38,944 nt of DNA from Limimaricola cinnabarinus LL-001 (GTDB taxonomy: Bacteria; Pseudomonadota; Alphaproteobacteria; Rhodobacterales; Rhodobacteraceae), in assembly GCF_000466965.1 (NCBI RefSeq), contig NZ_BATB01000035.1, positions 1-38,944 on the forward strand. Reading direction: 5' to 3'. The stretch's first letter is position 1. Each line of letters opens with the position of its first letter. Position numbers and translations under genes: made by a program. Shown here piece after piece: positions 4,720 to 27,267 of the stretch. Under the pieces are notes generated by a model that was not told where the DNA came from, ran no database searches, and worked only from the letters and a program-made list of their open reading frames with translations.

Positions 4720-5573
4720 CAGGGCCAAGGCCGATGCAGATCCTGATCCCCGCCAGCAACGAGGCCGCTCTGATCGACGGCTGCCTTTCCGCGCTGCTTG
4801 TCGCCCTGACCCCCACGGGTGCGACGTCAAAGCAGGTGCCGGTCGGTGTCACCGTCATCGCCAATGGCTGCCGTGACGCCACGGCCGCCCGCGCCCGCGC
4901 CTTCGGAGAGGCCTTCGCGCGCAAGGGGTGGTCGCTGCGGGTGATCGAGCTGGCGCAGGGCTCCAAGATCGCGGCGCTCAACGCCGGGGAGGCGGATCTG
5001 CCGTCAGAGGCGATCCGGGTCTACCTCGATGCCGATGTCACCGTGTCGCCGCGACTGCTTGGCGGGCTGCACGCCGCGCTCGACGGGCCTGCGCCGCTCT
5101 ACGCCGGGGGACGGCCCCGCATCACCGGGCGGGGGGGTGTCGCGCGCGCCTATGCGCGGCTCTGGGCGCGGCTGCCCTTCATGACCCATGGCGTTCCGGG
5201 ATGCGGCGTCTTCGCGGTGAACCCGGCGGGCCGCGCCCGCTGGGGCCGGTTTCCCGATCTCATCTCGGATGACGGCTTCGTGCGGCTGCAATTCGCCCCG
5301 CAGGAGCGGATCGCCGTGCCGGAACCCTATGACTGGCCGGTGGCCGAGGGGCTGGCGGCGCTGGTGCGGGTACGCGGGCGGCAGGATGCCGGAATGCGCG
5401 AGATCGCGCGCCTGCACCCCGAACTGCTCGCGCGCGAGGGCAAGCCGCCCTTGGGCGCGCGCGGTGCCGCGCGGCTGGCCCTGCGCGATCCTTTGGGGTT
5501 CGCCGTCTACGGGACCGTGGCGCTGGGCGTGAGGTTGAGGCCCGCGCCCGACAGCTGGAGCCGCGGCCGATGA
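4716..5573 (+). CDS. Glycosyltransferase family 2
   Basis: A 285-residue GT-A fold enzyme. It opens with the typical ILIPASNEA strand, has the nucleotide-sugar/metal-binding acidic motif YLDADV near residue 108, and an acceptor-side acidic pair in SDDGF near residue 184. It would add one sugar to the lipid-linked repeat unit in the cytoplasm or at the membrane. Its ATG overlaps the preceding stop (ATGA), and its own stop overlaps the start of the flippase gene by four bases, so it sits in a translationally coupled set. Donor and linkage cannot be predicted. A hydrophobic stretch near the C-terminus suggests peripheral membrane contact. Confidence 0.85.
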   Translation: MTGPRPMQILIPASNEAALIDGCLSALLVALTPTGATSKQVPVGVTVIANGCRDATAARARAFGEAFARKGWSLRVIELAQGSKIAALNAGEADLPSEAIRVYLDADVTVSPRLLGGLHAALDGPAPLYAGGRPRITGRGGVARAYARLWARLPFMTHGVPGCGVFAVNPAGRARWGRFPDLISDDGFVRLQFAPQERIAVPEPYDWPVAEGLAALVRVRGRQDAGMREIARLHPELLAREGKPPLGARGAARLALRDPLGFAVYGTVALGVRLRPAPDSWSRGR

Positions 5574-6939
5574 CGGCGGCGCTGATGGGACGGCTGCGGT
5601 CCGACGGGATCGGCAGCAGGGCGCTGCGCTCGGCCGGGATCACCATCGCGGGCTTCGGTATGAGCCAGGTTCTGCGGCTCGGCTCGAACCTGCTGCTGAC
5701 GCGGCTGCTGTTTCCCGAGGCCTTCGGCGTCATGGCCATCGTCATGGTCGTGATGATGGGGCTCAACATGTTCTCCGACGTGGGCATCACACCCGCGATC
5801 ATGCAAAGCCGTCGCGGCGACGATCCGGCCTTTCTCGACACCGCCTGGACGATCCAGATCTGCCGGGGCTTCGGGCTCTGGCTCGTGGCGCTGGCGCTCG
5901 CGGGGCCGGCGGCGGTCTGGTACGATGAGCCTATGCTGACGCAATACCTGTCGGTGGCGGCCTTCTCGCTGGTTCTCAACGGGTTCAACCGACCCGGCTC
6001 GAGACGGCGCATCGGCATCTGCGCGCGGGCCGCGTCACGCTGATCGAGCTCGGCACCCAAGCCACGCAGCTCGTCTTCGGACTGGCGCTGGCCTGGGCCT
6101 GGGGGTCGATCTGGGCGCTCGTGGTGTCGGGCCTCTTGGGGGCGCTGGCGCAGCTCGTCTATCTCAACCTCTTCCTGCCAGGGCACCGCAACCGGCCGCG
6201 TTTCGAACCCGAGGCCGCGCGCGAGCTGGTGCAGTTCGGCAAATGGATCTTCCTGTCCACGGTCGCGGGCTTTGCCGCGGGCCAGAGCGACCGGCTGCTG
6301 ATCGGCGGCTACCTGTCGATGTCGGATTTCGGGGTCTACAACATCGGCCTGTTCCTCGCGACATTCCCGATTATGCTGGGCCAGATGGTAACGCGCCGGG
6401 TGCTGATCCCGGTCTATCGCGACAGCCCGCCCTTCGAAAGCCGGGCCAATTTCGTCCGTCTGCGGCGGCTGCGGTTGCTGGCCACGTCGGGGCTGCTGGC
6501 GGCAACGGCGGCGCTGGGGCTCATGGGCGACTGGCTCATTGGCATCATGTATGACGGTCGCTACGCGGCGGCGGGCGGCGTGGTGGTGCTGGTCACAGTG
6601 CTGCAGATCCCGGTGCTGATCGGGTTGACCTACGATCAGGCCGTGCTGGCCTCCGGGCGCACGCGCAACTTCTTCGCGCTTCAAGCTTCCCGCGCGGCGC
6701 TCACGGTGGCGGGGCTCGCGCTCGGGCTTGCTTGGGGTGGGCTGCTGGGGGGGATACTGGGGCAGGGGGTGGCGCAGCTGCTGGCGTATCCGATCCTCAT
6801 CGTGGTCGCGCGGCGCGAAAGGGCATGGGACCCCTTGCACGATCTCGTGTTCGCGGGCGCGGGGCTCCTTGTCACGGCGACCTGTCTGGCTATGAACTGG
6901 TCCGCGCTGATGATGCTCGGGGCCATCGGACCGGCTTGA
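5570..6939 (+). CDS. Wzx-type polysaccharide flippase (frame break near 5990)
   Basis: A polytopic oligosaccharide flippase (MATE-like/RfbX superfamily) that would move undecaprenyl-linked repeat units across the inner membrane. The N-terminal part (5570 to about 5990) has the family pattern GMSQVLRLGSNLLLTRLLFPEAFG. The second part continues one frame back (GRVTLIELGTQ, then several membrane segments and FGKWIFLSTVAGF) to a stop at 6937-6939. Restoring one base near 5990, for example turning AACCGACC into AACTCGACC, gives the expected FNSTRLETAHR and an uninterrupted protein of about 456 residues. I treat the break as a sequencing deletion. It lies between the GT2 gene and the PKS, with 89 bases before the PKS start. 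Confidence 0.85.
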
Positions 6940-7028
6940 TCGTGTTGCAGCAGTGCCGGGCCGGGGCCGAAAAACCGCCGCATTCCCCGGTTATTATGAA
7001 GGGCGGTGCGAGGCAGGCAGGGGGCGTC

Positions 7029-10000
7029 ATGACAGGGCCGAGCGAGCTTGGGGCAGGCGATATCGCCATCGTCGGCATGGCGGTGGACCTTTCCGGTGCG
7101 CCCGACCTCGACGCCTTTTGGGCCATGCTGTCCGAAGGGCGCACGGCGATCCGTCGCCTGACGCCCGAAGAACTGACGCGCGCCGGCGTGCCCGAGGATC
7201 TCGCGCGCAGGCCCGACTACGTGCCTTACGGCGCGCCGCTCCAGGGTCACGACCTGTTCGACGCGGGGTTCTTCGGACTGACGCCCAAGGAAGCGGCGAT
7301 CATGGACCCCCAGCATCGCCGTTTCATCCGCACGGCATGGGGCGCCTTCGAAAACGCGGGCCATCTGCCCGAGAGCTTCGATGGTGCCATCGGGGTCTAT
7401 GCCGGTTGCGGACCCAATGACTACTACATGCGCAACCTGATGGGGCATGCCGGGCTGGTCGAGGAGACCGGTGCCTTCCTGCTGCGCCACACCGGCAACG
7501 ACAAGGATTTCCTCGCCACGCGGCTGAGCCACATGCTCGACCTCACCGGCCCCGCGATCTCGGTGCAGACCGCCTGCTCGACCTCCCTCGTGGCGGTGCA
7601 CATGGCGGTGCAGGCGCTGCTGACCGGCGATTGCGATATGGCGCTCGCGGGGGGTGCCACCATCGAACAGCCGCAGGGGCAGGGCTATGCGTGGCGCGAG
7701 GGCGAGATCCTCGCGCGTGACGGCATGTGCCGCGCCTTCGATCATCGCGCCGGCGGCACGGTGTTCGGCTCGGGCGCCGCCGCGGTGGTGCTGCGGCGGC
7801 TCGAGGATGCGCTGGCTGCGGGGGATCACGTCTGGGCGGTGATCCGCGGCACGGCGATCAACAATGACGGCGCGCGCAAGGCGAGCTATCTGGCCCCATC
7901 GGTCGAGGGGCAGGCCGCGGCGGTGGCATCGGCGCTGCGCATGGCCGGCGTCGGGGCCGAGAGCGTCGGTTTCGTCGAATGCCACGGCACCGGCACCGCG
8001 CTGGGCGACCCGATCGAGGTCGCGGCCCTGACCCGGGCCTTCCGCGAGACCACGCAGGCGCGGGGGTTCTGCCGGATCGGATCGGTCAAGACCGGCATCG
8101 GTCACACCGATACCGCCGCGGGCGCCGCCTCGCTGATCAAGGCGGCGCTGGCGCTGCACCACCGCACGATCCCCGGCACACCCGGCTTCGAGGCCCCGAA
8201 CCCGGCGATCGCGTTCGAGGGATCGCCCTTCGAGGTCGCCGCGACCACAGCGCCCTGGCCGCATGGGGCTACGCCGCGCCGCGCCGGGGTGAACTCGCTC
8301 GGGGTCGGCGGCACCAACGCCCATGCGGTGCTCGAAGAGGCCCCCCCGCAGGCCGCCGCCGAAGCCGACTGGCCGTTCGAGGTGATCCGTGTCTCGGGCC
8401 GCTCGCGCGCCGCTCTCGATGCCAACGCCGCCGCTCTTGCCGCCCATCTGCGGTCGCATCCGGAGGTCCCGCTCGCCGACATCGCTTATACGCTGGCCCA
8501 AGGCCGCCGCGCCCAGCCGCATCGCCGGGTGCTTCTGGCCGAAAGCCATGCCGAGGCCGCCGATCTGCTCGATGGGCGTGACCCGTGCCGCGTCGCCACG
8601 CTTCAGGCCCAGCGCGACCCCGAGGTGGTGTTCCTGTTTCCGGGCGGCGGCGCGCAACAGCCCGGCATGGGCTGCGATCTCTACGAGACCGAGCCCGTGT
8701 TCCGCGACTGGATCGACCACGGCTTTGCCGCGATGGGGGTCGCCGGAAAAGATCTGCGCGCCCTCTGGAACCCGGCACCGGAGGACGAGGCGGACGCGGC
8801 CGCGAAACTGCGCCGCCCCTCGCTGCAGTTGCCCCTTCTGCTGATCATCGAGCATGCGTTGGCGCAGCTCTGGATCGGCTGGGGCGTGCGGCCCGCGCGG
8901 CTGATCGGGCATTCGATGGGCGAGAACGCCGCCGCGGTGCTGGCGGGGATCATGTCCTTCGAGGACGCGCTCGGGCTGGTGCGGCTGCGCGGCGAATTGT
9001 TCGAGCAGACCGCGCCCGGTGCGATGCTTTCGGTGGGGATGCCCGCCGATGCGCTGCGCGCCGAATTGGGCCGTGATCTCGACCTCGCGACGATCAACGC
9101 GCCCGAACTCTGCGTCGCCTCCGGCCCGGTCGAGGCGGTCGAGGCGCTGGCCGAGCGTCTCGCCGCGCGCGGCGTCGACAGCCGCCGCATTCCGATAGAG
9201 GTCGCCGCGCATAGCCGCCTGCTCGATCCGATCCTGCCGCGCTTTCTGTCGCATCTGCAAAACCTTCGCCTGTCACCGCCACGGATCCCGGTGGTGTCGA
9301 GCCGTAGCGGCCGCGAGCTCAGCGCCGCCGAGGCCACCGATCCGGGCTACTGGGCCGGGCATCTGCGCCATACGGTCGATTTCGATGCGGCGCTGCACGG
9401 GCTCGGAGCGGGGGCGCGGATCTTCGTGGAGATGGGGCCGGGCACCAGTCTCGGTTCCTTTGCGACACAGCAGCCCGGCATCGGACCGGGCCGTTCTCTG
9501 GCGGGGTTGCGGCCCGCAGCCGATCCGAACGACGACGACCGGCACATGATCATGGCGCTCGGACGGCTCTGGGCCATGGGCGGGCGGTTCGACGAGGCGC
9601 AGCTCTCGGGGGCAGGCCGCCGCAAGGTGCCGCTGCCGGGAACGGTTTTTGAGGAGTCGCGCCATTTCATCGCCCCTCCCCCACGCCGCGCCGCCGATCC
9701 GGCCCTGCTCGCTCCGCCCGAGCGCGAGGCGGACATCGCGCGCTGGGCCTGGCGGCCCGACTGGCCACGCCGCTATCCCGAAGGGACGTTCGAGGCCGGA
9801 GGCGATCTCGCGGCGCAGCCCGACGGAACCTGGCTCGTGTTCCGCGACGCGATGGGGCTCGGGGCCGCGCTGGTGGCGCGCCTGCGCGCGGCGGGCCATG
9901 CCGTGGCCACCGTGACCCCCGGCCCGCGCGAGGCGCAGACCGGCCCGGCGGACTGGACCATCCGGCCCGAGGCGGGCGAGGCGGCCCATGCATGGCTGCT

Positions 10001-13000
10001 GGAACAGCTGGCCGAGGCCGATCTGCTGCCCGAGCGCGCGATCCACCTGTGGACCGTGACCGCCGCCAGAGAGGCGCAGGCGGCGCATCACCTGCAAGCG
10101 ATGCTCGATCGCGGCTATCACAGCATCATGCATCTGGCGCGCGGCTGGCACGCGGCGCAGGGCGACCGGCCGCTGCGGCTTCTGGCGGTGAGCAGCGAGG
10201 CCCATGCAGTGCAACCGAAGGACCGGCCCGATCCGGCCAAGGCGACGCTTGACGGACCGGCCATGGTGATCCCGCGCGAGCTGCCCGGCATCGGCCTGTC
10301 GCGGCTCGACCTCGCCGCGCCGCGCCGCGCCGACCGCGCCGCGCAAGTCGAGGCGGTTCTGGAAGAGGCGCTTTCGCCACCCGATCCCGCCCCCGTGGCG
10401 TGGCGCGACGGGGTGCGGCGTCAGCGCGGCGTGCGGCGCGCGTCACTTCCCACCGCGCCGGACATGCCGCTGCGCCGGGGCGGGCCGGTCCTGATCACCG
10501 GGGGTCTTGGCGGCATCGGCCTGACGCTGGCCGAAACCTTGATCCGCGACTGGGGCGCCGTGGTGGCGCTGGTCTCGCGCCGGGCTCTGCCGCCGCGTGC
10601 CGACTGGCCGGGCCTCGTCGCCGCCGGTGGCGAGGACGGGTCCCTGCCGGTGCTGCGCGCGTTGTTGCGGCTTGAGGCTTTGGGGGGCCGGGTCATGGTG
10701 CTGCGCGCCGATGTGACCGACCCTGACCGGATGCGCGATGCCGTCGCCGCCGCCGAGGCCGAACTCGGTCCGCTCAGCGGCGTGATCCATGCCGCCGGAC
10801 GGCTCGACGACGCGCCGGTGCTGGGCCGCGATCCGCGCGCCGCCGAGGCGGTGATCGCGCCCAAGCTGCGCGGCCTGATGGTGCTCGACGCGCTGTTTCC
10901 TGACGGGCGGCTCGATTGGATGGCGCTTTGCGCGTCAAGTTCGGGCTGGACCACCCCCGCGGGGCAGGCCGATTACGTCGCCGCCAACGCGGCGCTCGAC
11001 GCCTATGCATGGTCGCGCAAGGGCGGGGCCACGCGGGTGGTGGCGATCGACTGGGGCATCTGGTCGAACACCGGCATGGCGGCCTCGACGGAGGGCGACG
11101 AAGCCGAGGAAGCAGAGGGGCAGGGCACCGAGCTGTCGCTGCCGATGCTCGATCGACGCTCCCAAGACGGCGCTACCGACGAAGCGGCGCTCTTCACCGC
11201 CCGCTGGTCCCCCGACGGGCGCTGGTTTCTCGACCAGCACCGCACGCGGGCGGGCGATGCGCTGCTGCCCGGCACAGGCTATGCCGAGATGATGGCCGAG
11301 ATCGCCGGGCCGAACGGCTTCGTGCCGTTCACGCTGCACGATCTGCGTTTTCTCGCGCCGCTGCATACCCCCGATGGCGGCACGACCCGTGTGCGGGCGC
11401 GGCTGGGGTCGGGTACGCCCTTCGGTCCGGTGGAGATCGAAGCCGCGCCGCCGGGCGCGGGTTTCGCGCCTGTCTCGACCTGTCGCCTCGGCTCCGCCCC
11501 CTTGGCGGCCCCGCCATTCGACCCGCAAGGCCTCATGGCCCGGCTGCCAGCGCCTGTGCCGCTGGTGTTGCCGCAGGCCGCGCATCTCGATTTCGGTGCG
11601 CAATGGCAGGTGACCGGCGAAAGCGACAGGGGGCGGGTGAGGGTCTGGCTCGGCTGCGCCTGCCCGCCGGCGCGCAGGGCGGCCTTGTGCTGCATCCCGG
11701 GTTACTCGACATCGCCACGGGCTGGGCCATCGGCTTGATCGAGGGATACGACCCGGTCCACCTGTGGGTGCCCGCAGGCTATGCGGAGCTGCGGATTCAT
11801 GCGCCTCTGCCCTCCGAGATCCTGAGCCATGCGCGGCTCGTGCGGCAGCAGAAAGGGGTCGCTTGGTTCGATCTGGTACTCTGCTCGCCCAAGGGTCAAA
11901 TCTGTGTCGAGGTCTCGGGTTTCGAGCTGCGCCTCCTGCCGCAGGGTATGGCGTTCGGCGCGCCCCCGCGCGGGACCGGGCAGGAGGGCCCGCCCGCCAC
12001 CGCGCAACAGGCACTGCTCCGGGAGACGCGCCGTCACGCATTCGCCGTACTGAGGGTGGGGCCGCCTTTCTCGCCGCGATGGGGGCGGGCCTGCCGCAGG
12101 TCGCGATGACGGCGCAGCCGCTGCCCGACCTGATTGCCGCGGCCGCCGCGATCCGCCCCGCCGCCCCGGTGGAAGCGACGCCCGCGGCCCCCGCCGAAGG
12201 GTTCGAGACCGCGACAGAGGCCTGGCTTGCCGGGCAATGGACCGCGCTGCTCGGTGTCGAAGGGGTCGGACCCGACGACAGCTTCTTCGATCTCGGGGGG
12301 CATTCGCTGATCGCGTTGCGGCTCTTCGCGGCGATCCGTCGCGAAACCGGCACGGCGCTGCCGATCTCGGTCCTGTTCGAACGGCCGACGATCCGCAGCC
12401 TCGCGGCGCGGCTAGACGCGAACCCCCCCGCAGGGGGCTCCGCGCCGCCGCCGAAGACGCCCTCCGAGCAGAACGCGCCCCATCTCGGTTCCACCGGTGA
12501 CGAACCGGTGCATCTCGTGCCACTAAGCGTCGGGGGCGCGGCGACGCCGCTCTTCATCGCGGCGGGCATGTTCGGCAATGTCATGAACCTGCGCCATCTG
12601 GCCGGGCATCTCGGCCGCGACCGGCCGGTCTGGGGGCTTCAGGCGCGGGGGCTGGCGGGTGGCGCGGCGCCGCACCAAGGCTTCGAGGAGGCCGCGCGCG
12701 ATAATCTCGCCGAGATGCGCCGCGTGCATCCGGGCGGGCCCTGGATGCTCGCGGGGTATTCCGGCGGCGGGCTCATCGCACTCGAAATGGCGCGGCAGCT
12801 CACGCAGGCCGGGGAGAAGGTGGCGAACCTGATGCTGCTCGACACGCCGCTGCCGGTGCGTCCGGCGCTGACCCGGCGCGACCGGCTGGCGATACAGGCG
12901 ATCGAGTTGCGCCGGGCCGGGCCGGGCTATCCGCTGCTCTGGCTCAAGCGGCGGCTGCGCTGGGAGATCGACCGCCGCCGCTATGGCCGCGCCGCGGCGC

Positions 13001-13347
13001 AGCCGACGGCGAACCCGGTGGACATCGTGATGGAAACCGCCTTCTACACGGCCTGCGCCACTTATGACCTGCGCCGCTGGTCAGGGCCGATGACGCTGTT
13101 CCGCCCGCCCCTCGAAGGGCGCTGGCGCCTTGCGAGCGGGCGGCTTGTCAATGAGGATCGGCATTACGTGTTCGAGGACAATGGCTGGCGCGCTTGGGCT
13201 CCTGCCATGGAGGTGGTCGAGGTGCCGGGCGATCACATCAGCATGGTGGAAAACCTCGAGGCCGAGACGCTGGCGGCGCGGATGCTGGCCCGGATCGAGG
13301 CGTTCGAAGCCGGGGTCGGGACGACGGAACTTCATGCCGCGGAGTGA
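7029..13347 (+). CDS. Type I polyketide synthase, KS-AT-KR-DH-carrier-TE (two frame breaks)
   Basis: A single-module synthase of about 2106 residues once two one-base losses (near 11640 and between 12016 and 12045) are restored. Ketosynthase: Cys183 in TACSTS, His319 in CHGTG and His359 in GIGHTD, with canonical spacing. Acyltransferase: FPGGGAQQPGMG, then GHSMGE with Ser629. The small residue after Ser favours malonyl over methylmalonyl, but the usual HAFH box reads VAAH. Ketoreductase: GGLGGIG near 1158 and Tyr1316. Dehydratase: His1404 before LLPGTGY, with its second half (HPGLLDIATG) after the first break. Carrier: LGGHSL, serine codon 12304-12306. Thioesterase: GYSGGG and a GDH histidine. 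KR precedes DH, which is not the usual order, and there is no enoylreductase. ATG 7029 follows a GGGGGCG ribosome-binding region. It could act once or iteratively. Confidence 0.9.
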
Positions 13348-13353
13348 ACACGC

Positions 13354-14334
13354 ATGAGCAGCCTGCTGACGGTGATCCTGAACTGGCGCACGCCGGAGAT
13401 GACGCTGCGCGCCACCCAAAGCGCCCTCGCGGCGATGCAGGGCATCGAGGGCGGCATCGTGGTCGTCGACAATGATTCCGGCGACGGCTCGGAGGCGATG
13501 CTGCGCGCGGCGGTGAAGGCGCAGGGCTGGGCGCCGCGCGTGCGGGTGATGCAGTCGGGGCACAATGGTGGCTTTGGCGCAGGCAACAACGTGGGCATCC
13601 GGGCCGGACTGCCGGGCGGCGGGCGCGCGGATTTCGTCTATGTTTTGAACTCCGACGCTTTTCCGGCACGGACCGCGATCACGGCCCTTCTGGCGCATAT
13701 GCAGGCGCATCCCGCCGCCGGTCTCGCCGGAAGCCTGATCGAGGATCTCGACGGGACGGAGCATATGGCGGCCTTCCGGTTTCCATCGCTTCTCTCCGAG
13801 ATCGAGGGGCCGATGCGTTTTGGTCCGGTGACGCGGCTGCTGTCGGACCACAGCGTCTGGATGGAGACGCCGGAGCGGACGGGACCGGTCGATTGGGTGA
13901 TCGGGGCGAGCCTGATGATCCGAGGCGAACTGCTCGACGCGATCGGCGGCTTCGACGAGACCTTCTTTCTCTATTTCGAGGAAACAGACCTGTGCCGCCG
14001 CGCCCGGCAGGCCGGGTCCGAGACGCATTTCGTGCGGGAGAGCGTGGTGCAGCACATTGGTTCGGTCTCGACCGGCATGGGCGAATGGCGCCGCGTGCCC
14101 GATTACTGGTACGCCTCGCGCCGCCACTACTTCCGCAAGCATTACGGCGCGCTGGGTGCTGCCACGGCGACGGCGCTGCATATGGGGGCGGGCGGGCTGC
14201 ACCGGCTGCGCTGCCTCGTCATGCGCCGCGCGCCGGGCGATCCGCCGCGCTTTCTGCGCGACATGGCGCGCTTTGAGCTGCGCCAGTACCGGCCATCACG
14301 CCTGGCGCGCCGCCCCAAGGGCCACACGGCATGA
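13354..14334 (+). CDS. Glycosyltransferase family 2 (rhamnosyltransferase-like)
   Basis: A 326-residue GT2 enzyme of the WbbL/rhamnosyltransferase-like group. Visible features are the opening strand VILNWRTPEMT, the nucleotide-binding VVDNDS, NGGFGAGNN, the metal-binding LNSDAF near residue 97, and the downstream motif FDETFFLYFEETDLCRR that carries the acidic acceptor-side residues. It begins seven bases after the PKS stop, and its stop overlaps the NRPS start by four bases (ATGA). Being locked between the two assembly-line genes is the strongest contextual hint that the PKS/NRPS product and the glycan belong to one pathway. The exact donor sugar is unknown. Confidence 0.88.
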   Translation: MSSLLTVILNWRTPEMTLRATQSALAAMQGIEGGIVVVDNDSGDGSEAMLRAAVKAQGWAPRVRVMQSGHNGGFGAGNNVGIRAGLPGGGRADFVYVLNSDAFPARTAITALLAHMQAHPAAGLAGSLIEDLDGTEHMAAFRFPSLLSEIEGPMRFGPVTRLLSDHSVWMETPERTGPVDWVIGASLMIRGELLDAIGGFDETFFLYFEETDLCRRARQAGSETHFVRESVVQHIGSVSTGMGEWRRVPDYWYASRRHYFRKHYGALGAATATALHMGAGGLHRLRCLVMRRAPGDPPRFLRDMARFELRQYRPSRLARRPKGHTA

Positions 14335-17300
14335 GCGTGACGCTCGCCTTGATCGGCGACAGCGCCCTGACGCTCGAGACGGCGCGCATGGCGCAGGAGG
14401 CGGGGCTGCGGTTGTCGCTGGTCGTCACCCGCTTTGCCCCGTTGCGCGCGCTTGCCGCCGAACAGGGCATCGCGCTACTCGAACCCGAACAGCTGTCTGA
14501 ACGGCTGTCCGACCTGCCCGGTGGGATCGACTGGCTCGTCAGCGCGGGCAATCTCGACCTGCTGCCCGCCGACCTGCTGGGGCGGTTCACGCGCGGGGCA
14601 ATCAACTTCCACGACGGACCGCTGCCCGACCGGGCGGGGCGCAACGCGCCGGTCTGGGCGCTGCTCGACGGGGCGCGCCGGCATGCCGTGACATGGCATC
14701 TGATGACGCCCGAGGTCGATGCGGGCGACATTCTCGTGCAGCGCGGGTTCGACATTCCGCCGGAGACGACCGCGCATGGCCTCAACGCGCTGTGCTTCGC
14801 CGCCGCGATCGACAGCCTGCCCGACCTGTTCGAGCAACTCCGAAGCGGGCTGCGCCGCCGTCCGCAGACGGGTGGGCCCGGACGATGCCACTTCGCCGCC
14901 GACCGGCCACCGGCAGATGCGCTGATCGACGGGCGCGGAACGATGGCGGCGGCCTTGCGGCTGGTGCGCGCGCTTGATCACGGGGCGCATCCCAACCCGA
15001 TGTGCTGCCCCAAGATCGCAGGCCCGCGCGGCCCCGTGCTGGTGACACGGGCCGACGCGCTGGAGGCGGCTCGGGTGTCCGAGATGTCCTCCGAGCCGCC
15101 GGGCACGTTGCGGGCGGTGTCACCCCAGGCCATCGACCTGGTATTCGAGGATGGGGTGTTGCGCCTGTCCGGCCTGCGCCGTCCCGATGGTTCGGCCTGC
15201 CCGCAGGAGGTTCTGCCCACGGCCGGAGAGCGGCTGCCAGAGACCGGCACGGCCGACGCTCTGACGCGGCGCATGGCGCAGACGGCGCGCGCCGAGCCCG
15301 CTTGGCGATCCCGGCTCGAGACACTGCGGCCGGTTCGGCTCGTGGGGCTGACCGGCGGGACCGGGCCGCAAGGCGGCGGGCCTGACGGCCCAGGCGACAG
15401 CCGCGCACTCAGGCCCGGATACGCGCCCGAACGCCGCATCGCCGCATGGGCGCTTCTGGCGGCGCGTCTGGCGGGTGGCGCGACAGATATCGCCCTCATG
15501 TTGCCGCGCGAGGCCGAACCCGCGGCCGGGCATCTGTCGGATTGGGTGCCGCTGCGCGTGGAAACTGATCCGCAAGAGGATCTGGCGGCGCTGGCGACCC
15601 GGATCGGCGCGCGTTGCGCAAAGCTGCGGGAGCAGGGCGGTTTTGCCGCCGATCTGCCCGCCCGGCTGGGGACCGCACCCCCCGCGATGCCTGCCTTGGC
15701 GCTGGGGTCCGCCTGTCCCCAAGGGGCCATGATCGCGCTCGACCCCGAGGCCGGACGGCTCATCGCCGCGCCTACGGGGCTGATGCCCGGCGCACTCGAT
15801 CTTCTGGCGGAGCGTCTCGACGCCCTCCTTGAGGCCGATGCGGCGCGGCCCGGCACGGCCCTGTCGGACCTTCCCGCGCTCGGCGCCGCCGAGCGGCATC
15901 TCGTGGTCGAAGCGTGGAACGCCACGGACGGCCCGACCCCCGAGGGCACCATCGACGCCGCCATCTCGCACCGAGCCGTGCGCGACCCCGACGCCACCGC
16001 CCTGATCTGGGGCGAAGAGCGCCTGAGCCATGCCGAACTTGACGCCCGTGCCAACCGCATGGCGCGGGTGCTGTGCGAAATGGGTGTCGGACCGGGTCAG
16101 CGCGTGGGCCTGCATCTGCGCCGCTCGGCGGGCATGATGGTCGCGGCCCTCGCGGTGCTCAAGGCCGGCGCGGCCTATGTGCCGCTCGACCCGTCCTATC
16201 CACCGGAACGGCTGGCGCTCTATCTCGAAGACAGCGGCGCAAGCCTCGTAATCAGCGACGGTGGGGGACCGGCGGGGGACGCACCTGTGATGCGGCTGGA
16301 CGATCCGCGCATCGCCCGCGCATCGCCTGCGCCTCTCGCCCCGCGCGCCGCGCCAGAGGATCTGGCCTATCTGATCTTCACCTCGGGCTCGACCGGCCGC
16401 CCCAAGGGGGTGATGATCGAGCATCGTCACGTGATGAACTTCTTCGCGGCGATGGATGCACGGGTGCCGCATGCCCCCGGCGACGTGCTGCTGGCGGTAA
16501 CGTCGATCTCCTTCGACATCTCGGCGCTCGAGCTGTTCTGGACCCTGTCGCGCGGGCTGACGGTGGTGATCCAGGGCGAGGCCGAGCGCCTGCTCACCTC
16601 CGCAGGCGCGCAGGCAACCGAGGCGGGCCCCGCGCTCAGCCTGTTCTACTGGGGTTGCGAGGACAGCGACATGGGCGATTATGGGCTGCTGACGGAGGGC
16701 GCGCGCTTTGCCGATGCGCATGGCTTCGAAGCGGTCTGGATGCCCGAGCGGCATTTCCACGGCTTCGGCGCGGCCTATCCCAACCCGGCCGTGACCGGGG
16801 CCGCCATCGCCGCCGTCACCTCGCGCGTGGCGATCCGGGCGGGAAGCTGCGTCGCGCCGCTGCATCATCCGGCGCGCATTGCCGAAGATTGGGCCGTGGT
16901 CGACCGGCTATCGGGCGGACGCGCGGGGCTGGCGATGGCAGCGGGCTGGCAGCCGGACGATTTCGTGCTGCGCCCCGAAAACGCGCCGCCCGACAACCGC
17001 GCCGCGCTGCGCGACGGCATCGACGCGGTGCGCAGGCTCTGGCGTGGCGAGGCCGTGGCGTTCCCGCGCACCGATGGCAGCCTGCAGCAGGTGATGACAC
17101 GGCCCCGCCCGGTGAGCGCGGAGCTGCCATTATGGCTCACCGTCGCGGGCAATCCCGAGAGCTGGCGCGAGGCGGGGCGCATCGGGGCCAACGTGCTGAC
17201 CCATCTTCTGGGGCAAAGCATCGAGGATCTGCGCGCCCGCATCGCCGGTTGGCGCGCGGCGCTGGTCGAGGCGGGGCACGATCCGGCGGCGTTCCGGGTG

Positions 17301-19676
17301 ACGGTGATGCTGCACGCCTATCTCGACGAGAGCCGCGAGGTCGCGCGCAAGATCGCACGCGGGCCAATGAAGGCTTATCTGCGCTCCGCCGCCGGCCTCA
17401 TCGCCGATCACGCGGCGACCTTTCCCGCGCTCGGGCGCGACGCCGAGGGGGCGGTCGACCCCGACGCGCTGACCCCCGAGGAGATGGAGGCGGTGCTCGA
17501 TCACGCCTTCGAACGTTACTTCGAGGCGCAGGGCCTGTTCGGCACGATCGACGACGGCGCGGCGCGGCTGGCGGAATTGCGCGCGGCGGGGGCTGACGAG
17601 ATCGCCTGCCTCATCGATTTCGGCATCGCACCCGAGGGCGTGCTGGCGGGGTTGCCGCGCTTGGCGGCGCTGGTTGATGCGCTGCCGGTCGCCCCCGCCG
17701 CCCCCGCCGCGGATGACGCCTCGATCGCGGCGCAGATCCGGCGCCACGGCGTGACGCATCTGCAATGCACCCCCTCAATGGCGCGGATGCTGGTGGCCGA
17801 TGAGGTCAGCCGCAAGGCGCTGGGCGGGCTGTCGCGGCTCATGCTGGGCGGAGAGGCTTTGCCTGCCGCGCTGGCCGAGGATCTGCGCGCCGCCGGTGTC
17901 GGCCATCTCGAGAACATGTACGGCCCGACCGAGACCACGATCTGGTCGACCACCCGGACGGTGACGTCTCACACCCCGGCGTCGGTGATCGGCACGCCGA
18001 TCCTCAACACCCGCACCTATGTGCTGGACAATGCGATGACGCCGCTTCCGGTGGGGGCCGAGGGCGAGCTGTGGATCGGCGGGGCAGGGGTGGCGCGCGG
18101 CTACTGGGCGCGGCCAGAGATGACGGCTGAGCGGTTTCTCCCCGATCCGTTCCGACAAGGCGACCGGATCTACCGCACCGGCGATCTCGCACGCTGGCGT
18201 GCGGATGGCATGCTCGAATATATCGGTCGCGCCGACGGGCAGGTGAAGCTGCGCGGCCACCGGATCGAGCTGGGCGAGATCGAAGCGGCGCTCGACGCGG
18301 TGTCGGGCCTCGGGCCTTGCGTGGTCACGCGGCGTGAGGACAGCCCCGGCGACGCGCGACTCGTGGCCTATCTCGAAACCGAAGCCCCGATCGACGAGGC
18401 GGCGCTGCGCGCGGCGCTGTCGGCGCGGCTGCCCGCGATCATGGTGCCCGCCCGGATCGTCGCGTTGTCGCGCTTTCCGCTGACCCCCAACCGCAAGACC
18501 GACCGCGCGGCGATGCCGCCGCCACCTGCGCGGCGCGGCGCGTCGGTCATGGCCCCGCGTGCGGAACCCGCTCCGGCGGCCCCCGTGGTTCCCGCCGGGG
18601 CTAGGGCCGGGGCCGGGACTGTGGCACCGGCCATCGTGGCGATCTGGCGCGAGCTTCTGGGTGCGCGGGAAATCGGTCCGGATGACAGCTTCTTCGATCT
18701 CGGCGGACACTCGCTCCTCGCGGTGCGCGCCCATCGCGAGATCCGCGACCGGCTCGGCGTCGCCGGGCTGCAGATCGCGGACATCTTCGGTTTGCCGCGC
18801 CTGTCCGACCTTGCGGCGCGGATCGAGGCCGAACTAAGACCGGAATCGGCGTCGGGGCCAGCCCCCATAGTGCCGCCCGCCGCCGCCGGGCCGCGCGACG
18901 AGATCATGGCACGCCGACGCGCCTGCGGGCCCGGCGCGGTGGCCATGTCTGAGATATCGGCCCGGATCGAGGCGCTGTGCGGGCCGGGCGTGGCGGTCTG
19001 CGCGGTGCCGATGGGGCAGGGCGGGCCGCTCGCAGCGGCAGAGCGCCCGGCCATGGCGCGCGCCGTCCCCGCGCGCCGCGCCGAGTTCGCCGCCGGGCGC
19101 GAGGCGGCGCGCAGGGCGATGCGCAGGCTGGGCCTGCCTGCCTGCGCCATCCCCATGCGGCCCGACCGCTCACCCCTCTGGCCCCACGGGCTCTCCGGCA
19201 GCATCAGCCATGACGCGACCCTCGCCGTCGCGGCGGTACGCCGCGGCGGCAGGGCGCTCGGCATCGACATCGCGTCCGCGACACCGCTCGAGTCCGCGAT
19301 CTGGGACGAGATCGCCGATGCGGATGAGATTGGCCAGCCTGTGCCGGGGTTCGATCAGGGCCGTGTCGCCGGGCTGGTTTTTGCCGCCAAGGAGGCCGCC
19401 TACAAGGCGCAGTTTCCGGCGACGGGCCGCGTGCTGGGGTTCGACGCCATGCGGATCGAAATTGCCGGGAACGACATCGCGGCGCGGTTGCGGCAGACCG
19501 TCGGGCCCTATGCAGTGGGCACTGTGCTGCGTGGACGCTGGGCCGTTATCGGCGCGCGTCTTGTCGTGGCGATCGACGCGCCGGACGTCCCTTGCGCCAC
19601 CGGTCCCGGTTTCAAGCCGCGCAACACTGAGTTGCCTGCCTCGACCGGCATGGTCAGCCGGTCCGGGATGCGCTAG
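14331..19676 (+). CDS. NRPS: formyltransferase / truncated C / A domain with inserted LLM / PCP / PPTase
   Basis: A 1781-residue multidomain enzyme in one frame. Residues about 1-310 resemble methionyl-tRNA formyltransferase, with Asn92, His94 and Asp130 at the same spacing as the E. coli N106-H108-D144 triad. About 360-540 look like the C-terminal half of a condensation domain and show no HHxxxDG. The adenylation domain (about 540-1395) keeps TSGSTGRPKG, YGPTETT, YRTGDL and the catalytic Lys1389. It is interrupted between motifs A4 and A5 by a luciferase-like monooxygenase domain (about 768-1116; MPERHFHGFG), as in the MupA/Atu3671 (TIGR04020) type. The pocket residues read D-I-L-Q-M-G-M-I-W-K, close to the glycine code DILQLGLIWK. 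The carrier serine is Ser1461. The C-terminal 190 residues or so form an EntD/Sfp-like phosphopantetheinyl transferase (GSISHD, GIDI, AAKEAAYK). Its start overlaps the upstream stop. Confidence 0.92.
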   Translation: MSVTLALIGDSALTLETARMAQEAGLRLSLVVTRFAPLRALAAEQGIALLEPEQLSERLSDLPGGIDWLVSAGNLDLLPADLLGRFTRGAINFHDGPLPDRAGRNAPVWALLDGARRHAVTWHLMTPEVDAGDILVQRGFDIPPETTAHGLNALCFAAAIDSLPDLFEQLRSGLRRRPQTGGPGRCHFAADRPPADALIDGRGTMAAALRLVRALDHGAHPNPMCCPKIAGPRGPVLVTRADALEAARVSEMSSEPPGTLRAVSPQAIDLVFEDGVLRLSGLRRPDGSACPQEVLPTAGERLPETGTADALTRRMAQTARAEPAWRSRLETLRPVRLVGLTGGTGPQGGGPDGPGDSRALRPGYAPERRIAAWALLAARLAGGATDIALMLPREAEPAAGHLSDWVPLRVETDPQEDLAALATRIGARCAKLREQGGFAADLPARLGTAPPAMPALALGSACPQGAMIALDPEAGRLIAAPTGLMPGALDLLAERLDALLEADAARPGTALSDLPALGAAERHLVVEAWNATDGPTPEGTIDAAISHRAVRDPDATALIWGEERLSHAELDARANRMARVLCEMGVGPGQRVGLHLRRSAGMMVAALAVLKAGAAYVPLDPSYPPERLALYLEDSGASLVISDGGGPAGDAPVMRLDDPRIARASPAPLAPRAAPEDLAYLIFTSGSTGRPKGVMIEHRHVMNFFAAMDARVPHAPGDVLLAVTSISFDISALELFWTLSRGLTVVIQGEAERLLTSAGAQATEAGPALSLFYWGCEDSDMGDYGLLTEGARFADAHGFEAVWMPERHFHGFGAAYPNPAVTGAAIAAVTSRVAIRAGSCVAPLHHPARIAEDWAVVDRLSGGRAGLAMAAGWQPDDFVLRPENAPPDNRAALRDGIDAVRRLWRGEAVAFPRTDGSLQQVMTRPRPVSAELPLWLTVAGNPESWREAGRIGANVLTHLLGQSIEDLRARIAGWRAALVEAGHDPAAFRVTVMLHAYLDESREVARKIARGPMKAYLRSAAGLIADHAATFPALGRDAEGAVDPDALTPEEMEAVLDHAFERYFEAQGLFGTIDDGAARLAELRAAGADEIACLIDFGIAPEGVLAGLPRLAALVDALPVAPAAPAADDASIAAQIRRHGVTHLQCTPSMARMLVADEVSRKALGGLSRLMLGGEALPAALAEDLRAAGVGHLENMYGPTETTIWSTTRTVTSHTPASVIGTPILNTRTYVLDNAMTPLPVGAEGELWIGGAGVARGYWARPEMTAERFLPDPFRQGDRIYRTGDLARWRADGMLEYIGRADGQVKLRGHRIELGEIEAALDAVSGLGPCVVTRREDSPGDARLVAYLETEAPIDEAALRAALSARLPAIMVPARIVALSRFPLTPNRKTDRAAMPPPPARRGASVMAPRAEPAPAAPVVPAGARAGAGTVAPAIVAIWRELLGAREIGPDDSFFDLGGHSLLAVRAHREIRDRLGVAGLQIADIFGLPRLSDLAARIEAELRPESASGPAPIVPPAAAGPRDEIMARRRACGPGAVAMSEISARIEALCGPGVAVCAVPMGQGGPLAAAERPAMARAVPARRAEFAAGREAARRAMRRLGLPACAIPMRPDRSPLWPHGLSGSISHDATLAVAAVRRGGRALGIDIASATPLESAIWDEIADADEIGQPVPGFDQGRVAGLVFAAKEAAYKAQFPATGRVLGFDAMRIEIAGNDIAARLRQTVGPYAVGTVLRGRWAVIGARLVVAIDAPDVPCATGPGFKPRNTELPASTGMVSRSGMR

Positions 19677-19750
19677 ATTATGGCGTGGGTGTGGCGGCGA
19701 TGGGACCGGCGCGGATGGCGGCGGCCACTGGCGCGCAACGGGAGTCGTTG

Positions 19751-21016
19751 ATGGAATATCTTTCCTCGCTGCGCGATCTGCGCGGGGCGCTGCGCCGCCG
19801 GGCTTGGGCCATCGTGCTGGTCTGCGCGCTCGGGATTCCCTTCGTGCTATGGTTCGCCCTGACCCGGCCACCCTCTTTCGAGGCGACGGCGGTGATCCAG
19901 ATCGAGACGCCGCTGGTCGATGCGGGCGGCGACGCCGCCGCGATCGCGGACACTCAGCTCGACCTCATCGAACAGAAGATCATGGCACGCGACCGGCTTC
20001 TGGCGCTGGCCGAGAGGTTCGGCCTGTTTGCCGAATTGCCGCCCTCCGAACGGCTGGCCCAGATGCGCGACGCGATCGAGATCACCAAGCTGGTCGATCC
20101 GGCGCTGGCCTGGCGGCCCGAAACCGTGCCGTCGGGGCTGTCGATCACCGTCGAGGTCGGTGAGCGGCAGGTCGCCGCCGATCTCGCCAACGCGCTTCTC
20201 GACGAAATCGTCACGGCGGCGCAAAGCCGCCGCGAGGGGCGCACCGAACGCACGCTGGCTTTCTTCGAGGCCGAGGAGTCGCGCCTCGAAGGCGAACTGT
20301 CCGCCTTGGAGGCCGAATTCGCGCGGTTTCAGGAGGAGAACTTCCAGTCGCTCCCCTCCAGCGTGGCGGTGCAGCGCGATCAACTGTCCCGGCTCGTGGC
20401 CCAGCGGATCGACCTCGAACAGCAGGTCATCGCCTTCGAGACCAGCTCGGACCGGTTGCGCGACGACGAGACGGCGCGGCGCCGGTCCCTGCTCGAACAG
20501 CAGCGGCAGCTGATCTCCGACAACATCCAGAGCATCGAGGCCGCGCTTGCCGCGGCACCCGAGACCGAGCGGCGCTACAACGAGTTCGCGCGCCGCCGCG
20601 ATCAGCTTCAGCAGGCGCTGGCGGCGGTGACGGACCGGCGCACGGAGGCGGCGATGGCACAGCTTCTCGAAAGCCGCGACGAGACCACGCGTTTCGAGAT
20701 CCTCGAAGAGGCGGTGCCGCCCGATTACGCCTCATCGTCGTCGCGCAGCAAGATCGCGGCGGCGGGCGGGCTGGGCGTGCTGCTCGCGGCTCTGGCTCTG
20801 GCGCTGTCACTCGAAGTGGTGAACCCGCAGATCCGCACCGCGGCGCAGCTCGAGCGAGCCTTGGGCGTGCGCGCGGTGGTGGTGATCCCCGAGATCGACC
20901 GTCGACAGGCGCGCCGTCGGGCGCGGCAGGCGCGACGCCGCGAGGCGCAGACCTTTTCGCGCCAGTGGGAGCGAGTGCGGCGGTTGCGCGGCTTTTGGCG
21001 GCGGCCCGCCGCCTGA
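19751..21016 (+). CDS. Wzz/Wzc-N-type polysaccharide chain-length determinant
   Basis: A 421-residue inner-membrane protein that would control polymer length and couple to export. It has an N-terminal membrane segment (about residues 16-38, WAIVLVCALGIPFVLW), a long periplasmic region rich in coiled-coil heptads (about 150-300, many Glu/Gln/Arg), and a second membrane segment near 335-355 (GGLGVLLAALALALSLEV). The family's PxxP-like stretch appears as EEAVPPDY just before the second segment. It lacks the kinase half of a full Wzc; that half may be supplied by the convergent gene ending at 21062. I chose ATG 19751 (MEYLSSL) over an in-frame start at 19685 because it gives the usual short cytoplasmic N-terminus, with GGGAG upstream. 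Confidence 0.85.
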   Translation: MEYLSSLRDLRGALRRRAWAIVLVCALGIPFVLWFALTRPPSFEATAVIQIETPLVDAGGDAAAIADTQLDLIEQKIMARDRLLALAERFGLFAELPPSERLAQMRDAIEITKLVDPALAWRPETVPSGLSITVEVGERQVAADLANALLDEIVTAAQSRREGRTERTLAFFEAEESRLEGELSALEAEFARFQEENFQSLPSSVAVQRDQLSRLVAQRIDLEQQVIAFETSSDRLRDDETARRRSLLEQQRQLISDNIQSIEAALAAAPETERRYNEFARRRDQLQQALAAVTDRRTEAAMAQLLESRDETTRFEILEEAVPPDYASSSSRSKIAAAGGLGVLLAALALALSLEVVNPQIRTAAQLERALGVRAVVVIPEIDRRQARRRARQARRREAQTFSRQWERVRRLRGFWRRPAA

Positions 21017-22012: not shown

Positions 22013-22106
22013 TTCCGCTCGTCCCGTCACACGCTCGATCAAGGCGAGGATAGCCCGGAAAGCGGGGCGAGAATAAGCCCCGATCGCAGTCCTTCCGAGC
22101 CGGGCG

Positions 22107-26517: not shown

Positions 26518-27267
26518 ATGGAGTTCGATCACGGAGCGGGCCGGGTGCGGGTCAACATGACCGATCGCGCGGCGCTCATCGCCGAAGTGGCGGCGCGGCA
26601 GCGACAGAGGAAGGGCTTCGCGCTGGCGACGCTCAATCTCGATCACCTCGTGAAGCTGCGTCACGACGCAGGGTTCCGCGCCGCCTATGAGGCGCAGGAT
26701 CTGGTGACCGCCGACGGCAACCCGGTGGTCTGGCTGTCGCGGCTGGCGGGCCGCGAGGTGGCGCTTCTGCCCGGCTCCGACCTCGTCGTGCCGCTGGCGC
26801 GCGAGGCGGCGGCGCAGGGCGTGGCGCTGGCCTTCATCGGCGGCACCGAGAACAGCCTCGCGCGCGCGGCCCATGCCCTGGAACGGCTCGTGCCGGGGCT
26901 TCGGGTCGTGGCGCGGATCGCGCCGCCGATGGGCTTCGACCCCGATGGCGCCGAGGCGCGCGCTGCCCTCGACGCCGTGGCCGAGAGCGGCGCGGGCCTC
27001 GTCTTTCTCGCGCTGGGCGCGCCCAAGCAGGAGCGGCTCGCCGCGCGGGGCCGGGCTCTGCAGCCCGAGCTGGGCTTCGTGTCGATCGGCGCGGGGCTCG
27101 ATTTCCTGGCGGGTACGCAGCAGCGTGCGCCGCGCCTCGTGCGCAGGCTGGCGCTCGAATGGCTGTGGCGTGCGGGTTCGGACCCCAGGCGTCTCGCCGG
27201 GCGCTACGCGCGCTGCGCCGCGATCCTGCCGGGCCATGCGCTTCGGGCGTGGCGGATGCGGAGCTGA
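26518..27267 (+). CDS. WecG/TagA/CpsF family glycosyltransferase
   Basis: A 249-residue GT26-type enzyme that adds the second sugar (for example ManNAcA, ManNAc or glucose) onto an undecaprenyl-diphosphate-linked first sugar. Family motifs are visible: [11 protein letters not shown] with the conserved Asn and Asp, TADGNPVVW (Asp-Gly), [16 protein letters not shown] (the G-x-P-x-Q/K-E hallmark) and [11 protein letters not shown]. It ends with the arginine-rich C-terminus that anchors such enzymes to the membrane. The ATG at 26518 has GGAGA directly upstream. It is divergent from the minus-strand run and completes the glycosyltransferase set of the locus. Confidence 0.88.

Follow-up and report, generated by a model that had tools for sequence, protein, structure and literature searches.

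The PKS and NRPS genes that lie within a polysaccharide locus of Limimaricola cinnabarinus LL-001 probably encode a polysaccharide-decorating assembly line that places an acyl unit on a sugar of the repeat unit, a reading to which we assign a probability of roughly 55%. The genomic coupling of this assembly line to the polysaccharide locus is well supported. An NRPS with an inserted luciferase-like monooxygenase (LLM) is found in 70 of 198 family genomes, about one third (72 matching genomes minus G049 and G061, at 27% identity), and a homologue of the operon's Wzy is present in 66 of these 70 genomes versus 9 of the 128 others (odds ratio of 218, with kinship ignored). An earlier note on this DNA had held that Wzx/Wzy operons rarely carry complete assembly-line enzymes, a generalization that is off for a family in which about one third of the genomes carry the NRPS.

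In the window, by which we mean the whole 38,944-nucleotide stretch of contig NZ_BATB01000035.1 that was analysed, genes for a flippase, a PKS, a GT2 glycosyltransferase (GT2b), an NRPS and a chain-length determinant follow one another on the plus strand from 5570 to 21016 (Table 1). The earlier note had described these five genes, their order and their strand correctly, including the start of GT2b seven bases after the PKS (13354 and 13347) and the overlap of the NRPS start with the GT2b stop (14331 and 14334). The operon is nevertheless longer than it had proposed, starting near 527: the flippase is preceded by genes for a sugar-phosphate transferase, a Wzy-like polymerase, a GH-like/RTX protein and a further GT2. 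The priming transferase, the Wzx flippase (split between frames) and the glycosyltransferases that mark a Wzx/Wzy locus were all identified by family matches (PF02397, PF13440, PF00535). The chain-length gene scored 24.5 bits against the Pfam Wzz model PF02706 (cut-off 25.5; E 3.5e-5) and 84.8 bits against TIGR03007 (cut-off 278.85; E 3.8e-24). We take the gene at 1383 to be wzy from the look of its sequence and its position, since a Pfam search with it, and an NCBIfam search with its ortholog from genome G107, each gave zero matches; the GH-like label of its neighbor is likewise our presumption, with no family match behind it.

Table 1. Genes and domains of the window and the matches on which their names rest.
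Feature	Position	Strand	Match or remark
Polyprenyl-phosphate sugar-phosphate transferase (priming enzyme, WbaP-like)	527..1243	+	PF02397, E 2.4e-53
Wzy-like polymerase	1383..2786	+	PKS neighbor in relatives; 19/21 regions
Probable secreted GH-like protein, C-terminal RTX repeat	2783..4719	+	PF00353 in second part
GT2 glycosyltransferase (GT2d)	4734..5573	+	PF00535, E 1.3e-7
Wzx-type flippase	5570..6939	+	PF13440 in each of two parts
PKS part 1: KS, AT, KR, start of DH	7029..11738	+	PF00109, PF00698, PF08659, PF21089
PKS part 2, other frame: remaining DH	11687..12109	+	PF14765, E 5.5e-12 in ORF 10916-12109
PKS part 3, third frame: ACP and thioesterase	12079..13347	+	PF00550, PF00975
GT2b glycosyltransferase	13354..14334	+	PF00535, E 3.7e-11
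NRPS formyltransferase domain	14331..15230 (end approximate)	+	PF00551
NRPS probable C-terminal half of condensation domain	15468..15950 (approximate)	+	without HHxxxD
NRPS adenylation domain, N-terminal part to motif A4	15969..16589	+	PF00501
NRPS luciferase-like monooxygenase (LLM), between A4 and A5	16635..17672	+	TIGR04020, PF00296
NRPS adenylation domain, C-terminal part	17688..18515	+	TIGR01733; code DILQ-M-G-M-I-W
NRPS peptidyl carrier domain	18630..18824	+	PF00550, E 1.2e-12
Sfp-type phosphopantetheinyl transferase (PPTase)	18945..19676	+	PF17837, PF01648
Wzz-type chain-length determinant	19685..21016	+	PF02706, TIGR03007, both below cut-off
GT2 (GT2c-like) and CpsD-like kinase	21062..22831	-	PF13632, PF01656; one ORF here, two in G107
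GT4 glycosyltransferase	23363..24316	-	gene cluster 9; PF00534 in cluster representative
WecG/TagA-type glycosyltransferase	26518..27267	+	PF03808, E 7.1e-44

Several genes of the window are broken between reading frames: the flippase into two (5570-6043 and 6121-6939), the PKS into three and the GH-like/RTX gene into two (2783-3928 and 3925-4719). The GH-like/RTX gene is a single ORF in relatives, as is the PKS, of about 2080-2170 amino acids, in 19 trio-bearing relatives. A split rpoB in this genome makes assembly indels the likely cause of the breaks in the PKS and the flippase. The PPTase, which here is read in frame with the NRPS, has an ORF of its own immediately downstream of the NRPS in 17 of 19 relatives, and because of this and the split rpoB we rejected a window-specific NRPS-PPTase fusion as a probable indel artefact.

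In 19 of 20 relatives the PKS, GT2b and NRPS genes of the trio are likewise adjacent to one another and transcribed in the same direction, indicating that the arrangement is not due to chance. Among Rhodobacterales loci of at least 20 kb, assigned to the order by taxonomy or record title (loci of this length were 63 of 80 overall), at least one of the polysaccharide markers Wzx, Wzy, Wzz, PHPT, CpsD and WecG was found nearby in 37 of 40, and at least two in 34 of 40, versus 1 and 0 of 20 controls, respectively; none of the six was found within the flanks of three loci (L101, L105, L175). Thus, the earlier view of the assembly line as part of a polysaccharide locus is upheld, and the trio mostly does not recur outside such loci. 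Outside Rhodobacterales only 9 of 23 loci had a marker, as scored with models built from Rhodobacteraceae, and in some Rhizobiales and deltaproteobacterial loci polysaccharide genes are found close to a similar NRPS-PKS pair. These neighbor surveys covered 64 of 88 and 78 of 100 genes run through Pfam, with the 14 neighbors of L151 among those omitted. A class-wide search gave an LLM match at E 1e-60 or better in 11 of 385 genomes, five of them in the window's own family.

In the 66 genomes with both NRPS and Wzy, the two genes are within 30 kb of each other in 51, further apart on one contig in three and on different contigs in 12, some of which may represent assembly breaks. Of the four LLM-NRPS genomes that lack a Wzy homologue, two are less than 86% complete, one is 6% contaminated and one (G144) has a different cluster. 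Conversely, seven genomes have the Wzy/glycosyltransferase locus and no LLM-NRPS match anywhere at E 1e-20, and six of these also have no similar PKS at E 1e-50. In the light of these genomes, the assembly line resembles an addition to a polysaccharide. An SGNH-type protein (DUF4886/carbohydrate-esterase-like model), which has neither a Pfam nor an NCBIfam match, is encoded close to the PPTase gene in 13 of 20 relatives and is counted in favor of decoration; none was found near the trio of the window itself.

The domains named in the earlier note (KS, AT, KR, DH, ACP and TE in the PKS; formyltransferase, A and PCP in the NRPS) were all right, but it missed the LLM in the NRPS, the apparent half condensation domain, the PPTase that follows and the frame splits of the PKS and flippase. 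Residues N92, H94 and D130 of the formyltransferase, presumably the catalytic Asn, His and Asp, are invariant in 21 of 21 sequences, and the adenylation code is one that we take to be glycine-type, so that the substrate and formylation previously predicted hold up (codes that a regular expression started at the wrong residue, e.g., L128, L137, L166 and L168, were left unused). Of the condensation domain, apparently only one half is present: no HHxxxD motif occurs in NRPS residues 281-545, before the A domain, and the likeness of the remaining segment to a C domain is our assumption. The best PDB match of the NRPS is LgrA (E 1.3e-194), and the protein lacks a TE, ending in the PCP with the PPTase following.

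The LLM scored 439.7 bits against TIGR04020 (cut-off 244.45; PF00296 E 3.1e-48). In myxothiazol-type modules, according to the part of PMC10204066 available to us, an LLM within the A domain hydroxylates the glycyl alpha carbon. The 4-formamido-crotonyl unit suggested earlier leaves this oxygenase out of account, and we rejected it as a general product, since 70 genomes have the LLM and trio loci without it were observed only in G085 and G097, where a simple product of this type would fit. A third GT2b genome without an LLM match, G155, has a contig that stops inside the NRPS.

In each of 19 relatives the KS, AT, KR, ACP and TE motifs are intact, with those of DH read in one reference only; the catalytic domains of a hybrid NRPS-PKS system are all present, and the PKS of the window itself is frame-split. 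Pairwise distances of PKS and NRPS are correlated at r = 0.94, a supportive value that has no genome-wide baseline. The earlier proposal that the NRPS primes and the PKS extends is no more than suggested by 12 distant loci that have the NRPS gene ahead of the PKS gene on the same strand (L139, L140, L143, L144, L147-L149, L153, L154, L156, L157, L172). The order in Rhodobacterales is the reverse, however, with the PKS gene leading, and seven other loci carry the two on opposite strands (L131, L137, L141, L145, L152, L168, L173). A PKS that works for several rounds, giving a polyene chain attached to or exported with the glycan, would be permitted by its domain set (KR and DH, with no ER domain found in the PKS), and sequence does not fix a single round; we consider it very improbable, given that the 12 distant loci place the PKS after the NRPS, as expected for a single module of a colinear line.

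The thioesterase is also where a different fate of the product has to be weighed, namely a free amide (a signal, antibiotic or metal ligand) released by the TE from genes that merely travel with the polysaccharide locus. Product release is usually the task of a terminal TE, and this one has its better PDB matches among the TEs of conventional NRPS systems (e.g., 4zxh, E 2e-22; 7crn, E 4e-17). It also aligns over its full length with the TE of Pks13 (E about 2e-7), a match weaker than several peptide-line TEs; a search of the KS against the PDB did not separate the hypotheses. Moreover, the PKS-NRPS pair is separated from the Wzy locus in some genomes (G185, G072, G088). Two orphan NRPS-like/T1PKS hybrid clusters of Roseobacter-group genomes are, in the portions of their papers available to us, described as secondary-metabolite genes: Roseibaca BMJDCPAI_00765/00767, which by sizes and spacing (PMC10584327), and Phaeobacter Inhi_1972/1974, which by gene numbers (PMC4062626), would correspond to the NRPS and PKS here, separated by a single gene. 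We infer from these descriptions, rather than from alignment, that both are the same NRPS-PKS system. The available main text of the Roseibaca paper mentions neither exopolysaccharide nor glycosyltransferase nor wzx (PMC10584327), and among the matches listed from the open-licence literature no paper dealt with an NRPS-PKS line located in a polysaccharide locus of this kind. Nevertheless, a Wzy homologue is missing from only 4 of 70 LLM-NRPS genomes, several loci in other orders and phyla are also flanked by polysaccharide genes, and among the most conserved neighbors in 21 regions Wzx is the sole exporter (an ABC-transporter cluster is present, at variable positions, in 10 of these regions), which makes a free metabolite unlikely.

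GT2b orthologs, defined by a match at E 1e-85 or better, are present in 67 of 198 family genomes, the window's included (67 of 105 matching genomes, with a 66%-identical fragment in G118 excluded). The gene lies between the synthase genes in 36 of the 40 Rhodobacterales loci, and its frame overlaps that of the NRPS in 13 of 19 relatives by automatic start calls; PKS and NRPS without an intervening GT2b occur in four of the 40 (L118, L122, L161, L169) and in G185 and G126. In a tree of 45 GT2b-type and six outgroup rows taken from a larger pool, 32 of 34 assembly-line rows, two deltaproteobacterial ones included, form one group apart from 11 homologues of loci without PKS and NRPS, with a support (85/95) below the starred level of the tool and a weak root (79/75). 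The two exceptions are L161, an assembly-line locus whose GT2b is of the other type, and L157, which is unplaced near the base. In addition, four of the 11 homologues come from genomes with an NRPS elsewhere (G118, G126, G147, G185), with the PKS of G126 about 9 kb away. Because of these cases the GT2b subtype does not correspond one-to-one to the assembly line; the GT2b of the trio appears to be mostly a specialised form, in a clade of its own with exceptions.

The separate clade favors the earlier suggestion that the intervening GT2 couples the unit to the glycan, but homologues near Wzy in loci that lack PKS and NRPS speak against it, and we did not accept GT2b as a proven coupling enzyme. 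Both its position between the synthase genes and its clade would also suit a glycosyltransferase that acts on the PKS-NRPS product, perhaps at the alpha-hydroxyl, to give a glycoside exported alone. We regard this as quite improbable, since GT2b homologues are found near Wzy in loci without PKS or NRPS, GT2b distances track those of NRPS and PKS only loosely (r 0.53-0.56, also with no genome-wide baseline) and the co-occurrence of NRPS and Wzy is too tight for a free glycoside.

For decoration of the repeat unit, we envisage that the NRPS would load and formylate glycine, which the inserted LLM would hydroxylate at the alpha carbon, and that the PKS would receive the N-formyl-(alpha-hydroxy)glycyl unit, add one two-carbon unit, reduce and dehydrate it, the PPTase having activated both carrier domains. 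The PKS thioesterase might then move the short, polar acyl group onto a repeat-unit sugar, most likely the residue added or accepted by GT2b, after which Wzx would flip the decorated unit and Wzy polymerise it, with Wzz and CpsD in control. The domains, the catalytic motifs in relatives, the synteny and the co-occurrence can be read directly from sequence; the order of steps, the single extension, the chemistry of the unit, its attachment to the glycan and the identity of the sugar that accepts it are what we infer from them, and acyl-to-sugar transfer by TE or GT2b is not evident from either sequence.

The same unit could instead cap or anchor the chain at one of its ends, a role like that proposed for RkpA in K antigens. 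PKS-like enzymes are known in capsule loci: RkpA, encoded among the Sinorhizobium K-antigen genes, is needed for capsular polysaccharide and has been proposed to make a lipid. Retention of Wzy in loci without the PKS, and of Wzx in several, would agree with this. The predicted unit is, however, short, polar and not lipid-like, unless the PKS works repeatedly, and a mostly specialised GT2b clade better suits a repeat-unit sugar, so that we hold a terminal cap to be improbable.

Repeat-unit decoration can be extended, tentatively and at less than even odds, to a phylum-spanning NRPS-PKS line whose TE would load an N-formyl-(alpha-hydroxy)glycine-derived acyl group onto the sugar of a dedicated GT2, yielding a reactive decoration of the carbinolamide or aldehyde type on a backbone that is made with or without it, with loss of the oxygenase switching the chemistry. 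If decoration is correct, an orphan cluster that is common in Rhodobacterales and is classed under "secondary metabolite" genes would in fact be a cell-surface gene set, the difficulty of naming a free product would be explained, and an unexpected polymer chemistry would be added that is testable in culturable environmental strains.

Each of the known systems shares part of this design. The start module of linear gramicidin synthetase LgrA has the layout FT-A-PCP, and the NRPS described here likewise has a formyltransferase fused to A and PCP as a start module; unlike LgrA, it has the LLM insertion and would hand over to a PKS rather than to a peptide chain. The terminal-module proteins of myxothiazol and melithiazol biosynthesis are MtaG and MelG. 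With these modules, as described in the available part of PMC10204066, the NRPS shares a glycine-type A domain with a flavin monooxygenase between A4 and A5. It differs in its formyltransferase and apparent half C domain at the start and carrier domain at the end, in place of the full C domain before and TE after that characterise amide release. Because a PKS is the next partner, the NRPS looks like a starter rather than an amide-releasing terminator. The Pks13 TE transfers an acyl group to trehalose and, like the TE here, terminates a PKS; the full-length similarity is weak, and acyl-to-sugar transfer in our system would be by analogy. RkpA also ties a PKS-like enzyme to a surface polysaccharide, but we know of no NRPS partner for it, whereas one is present here. 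Finally, DltA/DltC and AlmEFG pair an adenylating enzyme with a carrier protein to decorate a cell-envelope polymer or lipid, AlmE using glycine; a plain amino acid is attached there, whereas formylation, oxidation and polyketide extension are predicted here.

Across a family sample of 198 Rhodobacteraceae genomes (nearly one per genus, that of the window included), the NRPS with a luciferase-like monooxygenase (LLM) inserted in its adenylation (A) domain was found in 70, an ortholog of GT2b, the glycosyltransferase encoded between the PKS and the NRPS, in 67, and a Wzy homologue in 75; 63 genomes had all three and 118 had none. The LLM-NRPS lacked Wzy in four genomes (G022, 85% complete; G098, 84% complete; G158, 6% contaminated; and G144). 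Wzy occurred without the LLM in nine, two of which (G085 and G097) carry the PKS-GT2b-NRPS trio with an uninterrupted A domain. In each of the other seven, Wzy is accompanied by two or more of the genes for Wzx, GT4, GT2c, WecG and the GH-like protein; these genomes also encode a GT2b homologue, 35-41% identical, and the 20 kb fetched from them yielded neither a PKS nor an NRPS match. Genome-wide, the LLM-NRPS was found in 0 of these seven at E 1e-20 and a similar PKS was not found at E 1e-50 in six; the seventh, G104, has a PKS of 33% identity about 78 kb distant. Of the 66 genomes with both the NRPS and Wzy, 51 have them within 30 kb of each other, 3 have them at a greater distance on the same contig, and 12 have them on separate contigs, in some cases perhaps because of breaks in the assembly. 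These counts, which are uncorrected for phylogeny, therefore indicate that the association is not merely physical linkage.

The reading we favor, with a probability of roughly 0.55, is that the NRPS-PKS line would make a short N-formyl amide acyl group, which the thioesterase (TE) would transfer onto one of the repeat unit's sugars. The doubt mostly concerns attachment and exact chemistry; a product that serves as an end group or anchor is distinctly less probable.

Selected features of the window and of fetched loci
Sequence	Position	Strand	Feature
Window		+	Priming sugar-phosphate transferase
Window	1383-2786	+	Wzy-like gene
Window		+	GH-like gene with RTX repeat (2 frames)
Window		+	GT2
Window		+	Wzx-type flippase (2 frames)
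Window	7029-13347	+	PKS (3 frames)
Window	13354-14334	+	GT2b
Window	from 14331	+	NRPS, then phosphopantetheinyl transferase (PPTase)
Window		+	Wzz-type gene
Window			Downstream: GT2 and CpsD-like kinase, GT4, sugar epimerase/dehydrogenase-type genes, WecG-type GT
Window	30122-31843		Na/Ca exchanger and short-chain dehydrogenase gene
L042	19020-19955		SGNH-type protein
L083 (G097)	15207-18512		NRPS of LLM-less trio
L133	18416-20971		GH-like gene
L151	8381-12898		NRPS (FT-A-LLM-PCP), Myxococcota MAG

In the 40 kb surrounding the NRPS taken from 20 relatives, the trio is contiguous in 19, with Wzy immediately 5' of the PKS in 13/19, overlapping GT2b and NRPS reading frames in 13/19 and a PPTase ORF directly after the NRPS in 17/19. 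The exception, G144 (loci L055 and L075), has an FT-A-LLM NRPS flanked on both sides by very large PKS ORFs (3476 and 3068 aa); these loci gave neither a GT2b nor a Wzy match and show another use of the same start module. The window itself is an entire contig of 38944 bases from an assembly of 192 contigs, and its sole relative of the same genus within the family sample is G107. Because the PKS is a single ORF in all 19 trio-bearing relatives and the essential gene rpoB is also broken into two stretches in the window's genome, assembly indels are the simplest cause of the split frames, which in this one assembly may otherwise reflect decay of the locus. The Na/Ca exchanger and short-chain dehydrogenase gene likewise look frame-broken, as do several genes of the contig.

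The GT2b tree (51 rows) places 32 of the 34 assembly-line rows, the deltaproteobacterial L149 and L139 among them, in a single group (support 85/95, below the starred level), and the eleven homologues whose loci lack PKS and NRPS outside it, as two groups. L161 has the assembly line, yet its GT2b groups with the latter copies, and that of L157 (Sphingopyxis) branches near the base of the tree. Four of the eleven come from genomes with an NRPS elsewhere (G118, G126, G147 and G185), and in G126 a PKS lies about 9 kb away. This makes GT2b a polysaccharide enzyme, of a subtype that goes with the assembly line in most cases but not in all. Pairwise distances correlate at 0.94 between PKS and NRPS and at 0.53-0.56 between GT2b and either. 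We regard an exported glycoside as an improbable product.

In 13 of 20 relatives, a gene near the PPTase encodes a protein of about 310 aa whose N terminus has a hydrophobic segment; this gene is absent beside the window's trio. Searches of Pfam and NCBIfam with the L042 copy and its homologues gave zero matches. The predicted structure of the L125 homologue (mean pLDDT 95) had just two matches at E 0.001 or better, one to a DUF4886 structure and the other to a carbohydrate esterase of family 3; next, at E 1.8e-3, came the SGNH domain from an LPS acetyltransferase. An enzyme that moves or removes sugar acyl groups would fit decoration of the polysaccharide. The GH-like gene of L133 appears to bear an extra N-terminal SGNH-type domain.

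The PKS has the order KS-AT-KR-DH-ACP-TE; the KS, AT, KR, ACP and TE motifs are retained, with minor letter variants, in 19/19 relatives, and the His and Asp motifs of the DH were identified visually in a single reference sequence. An iterative polyene is a highly improbable product of this line. The NRPS comprises a formyltransferase, a stretch resembling the C-terminal half of a condensation domain in which the HHxxxD motif is absent, the A domain interrupted by the LLM between A4 and A5, and a PCP. Among solved structures, the whole protein is closest to LgrA and the LLM to PuwE. Most cleanly read LLM copies have the A-domain code DILQ-x-G-M-I/V-W, and the LLM-less copy of G085 has DILQLGLIW; we take the DILQ type to be a glycine code. 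The LLM-less loci of G097 and G085 (L085/L086) provide natural variants with which the oxygenase's role could be tested. The myxothiazol and melithiazol modules share a monooxygenase at the same place in the A domain; it hydroxylates glycine at the alpha carbon, and cleavage of the N-C bond follows, whereas hydroxyglycine is retained in solanimycin (PMC10204066; PMC11342130). Given a formylated nitrogen and a PKS as the expected next partner, the starter handed on would be N-formyl-alpha-hydroxyglycyl; alternatively, loss of formamide, leaving a glyoxylyl starter, is possible.

A scan of genome contigs gave at least 80 loci, and marker counts were restricted to those of at least 20 kb. Among the Rhodobacterales loci listed, 37/40 had at least one of six polysaccharide markers and 34/40 at least two, compared with 1/20 and 0/20 control regions from relatives; for non-Rhodobacterales loci listed, the counts were 9/23 and 4/23 with models trained on Rhodobacteraceae. 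A Pfam run on 64 neighbor proteins of eight loci (Aureimonas, Agrobacterium, Rhizobium, another Rhizobiales, Sphingopyxis and Deltaproteobacteria), partly chosen by marker matches and with no random control, identified 4 priming transferases, 4 flippase-family proteins, 3 Wzy_C and 2 export proteins. A second run, also with no random control, on 78 neighbors of ten loci from Gemmatimonadota, Chloroflexota, Acidobacteriota and others identified 8 GT2, 4 Polysacc_synt_2 and 3 polysaccharide deacetylases out of 141 families. Among the matches listed, 12 distant loci have the NRPS 5' of a PKS on its own strand, as would be expected of an NRPS that begins the chain. This order is only suggestive, because the two are on opposite strands in 7 other listed loci and the PKS is ahead of the NRPS in Rhodobacterales. 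At the Myxococcota locus L151, the NRPS and a PPTase adjoin GT4-type genes, and a PKS match is absent across its 22.8 kb.

The PKS and NRPS are already in print as an orphan cluster. A study on Roseibaca describes an NRPS-like/T1PKS hybrid in 18/37 species, with one gene number left out and a gap of about 990 bases between its synthases (PMC10584327), and another report lists Inhi_1972 and Inhi_1974 in Phaeobacter inhibens (PMC4062626). We infer that both pairs are the same trio; among the papers listed in literature searches, none tied it to a polysaccharide. A free metabolite as the product agrees with the orphan-cluster label and with the TE, but is at odds with the near-exclusive company of Wzy, and we consider it unlikely. 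The TE resembles that of Pks13 weakly and those of peptide lines more closely, so that its sequence is of little help for the transfer to a sugar that we favor. Carrier-protein systems that decorate envelope polymers are a known idea, of which the trio would be a variant.
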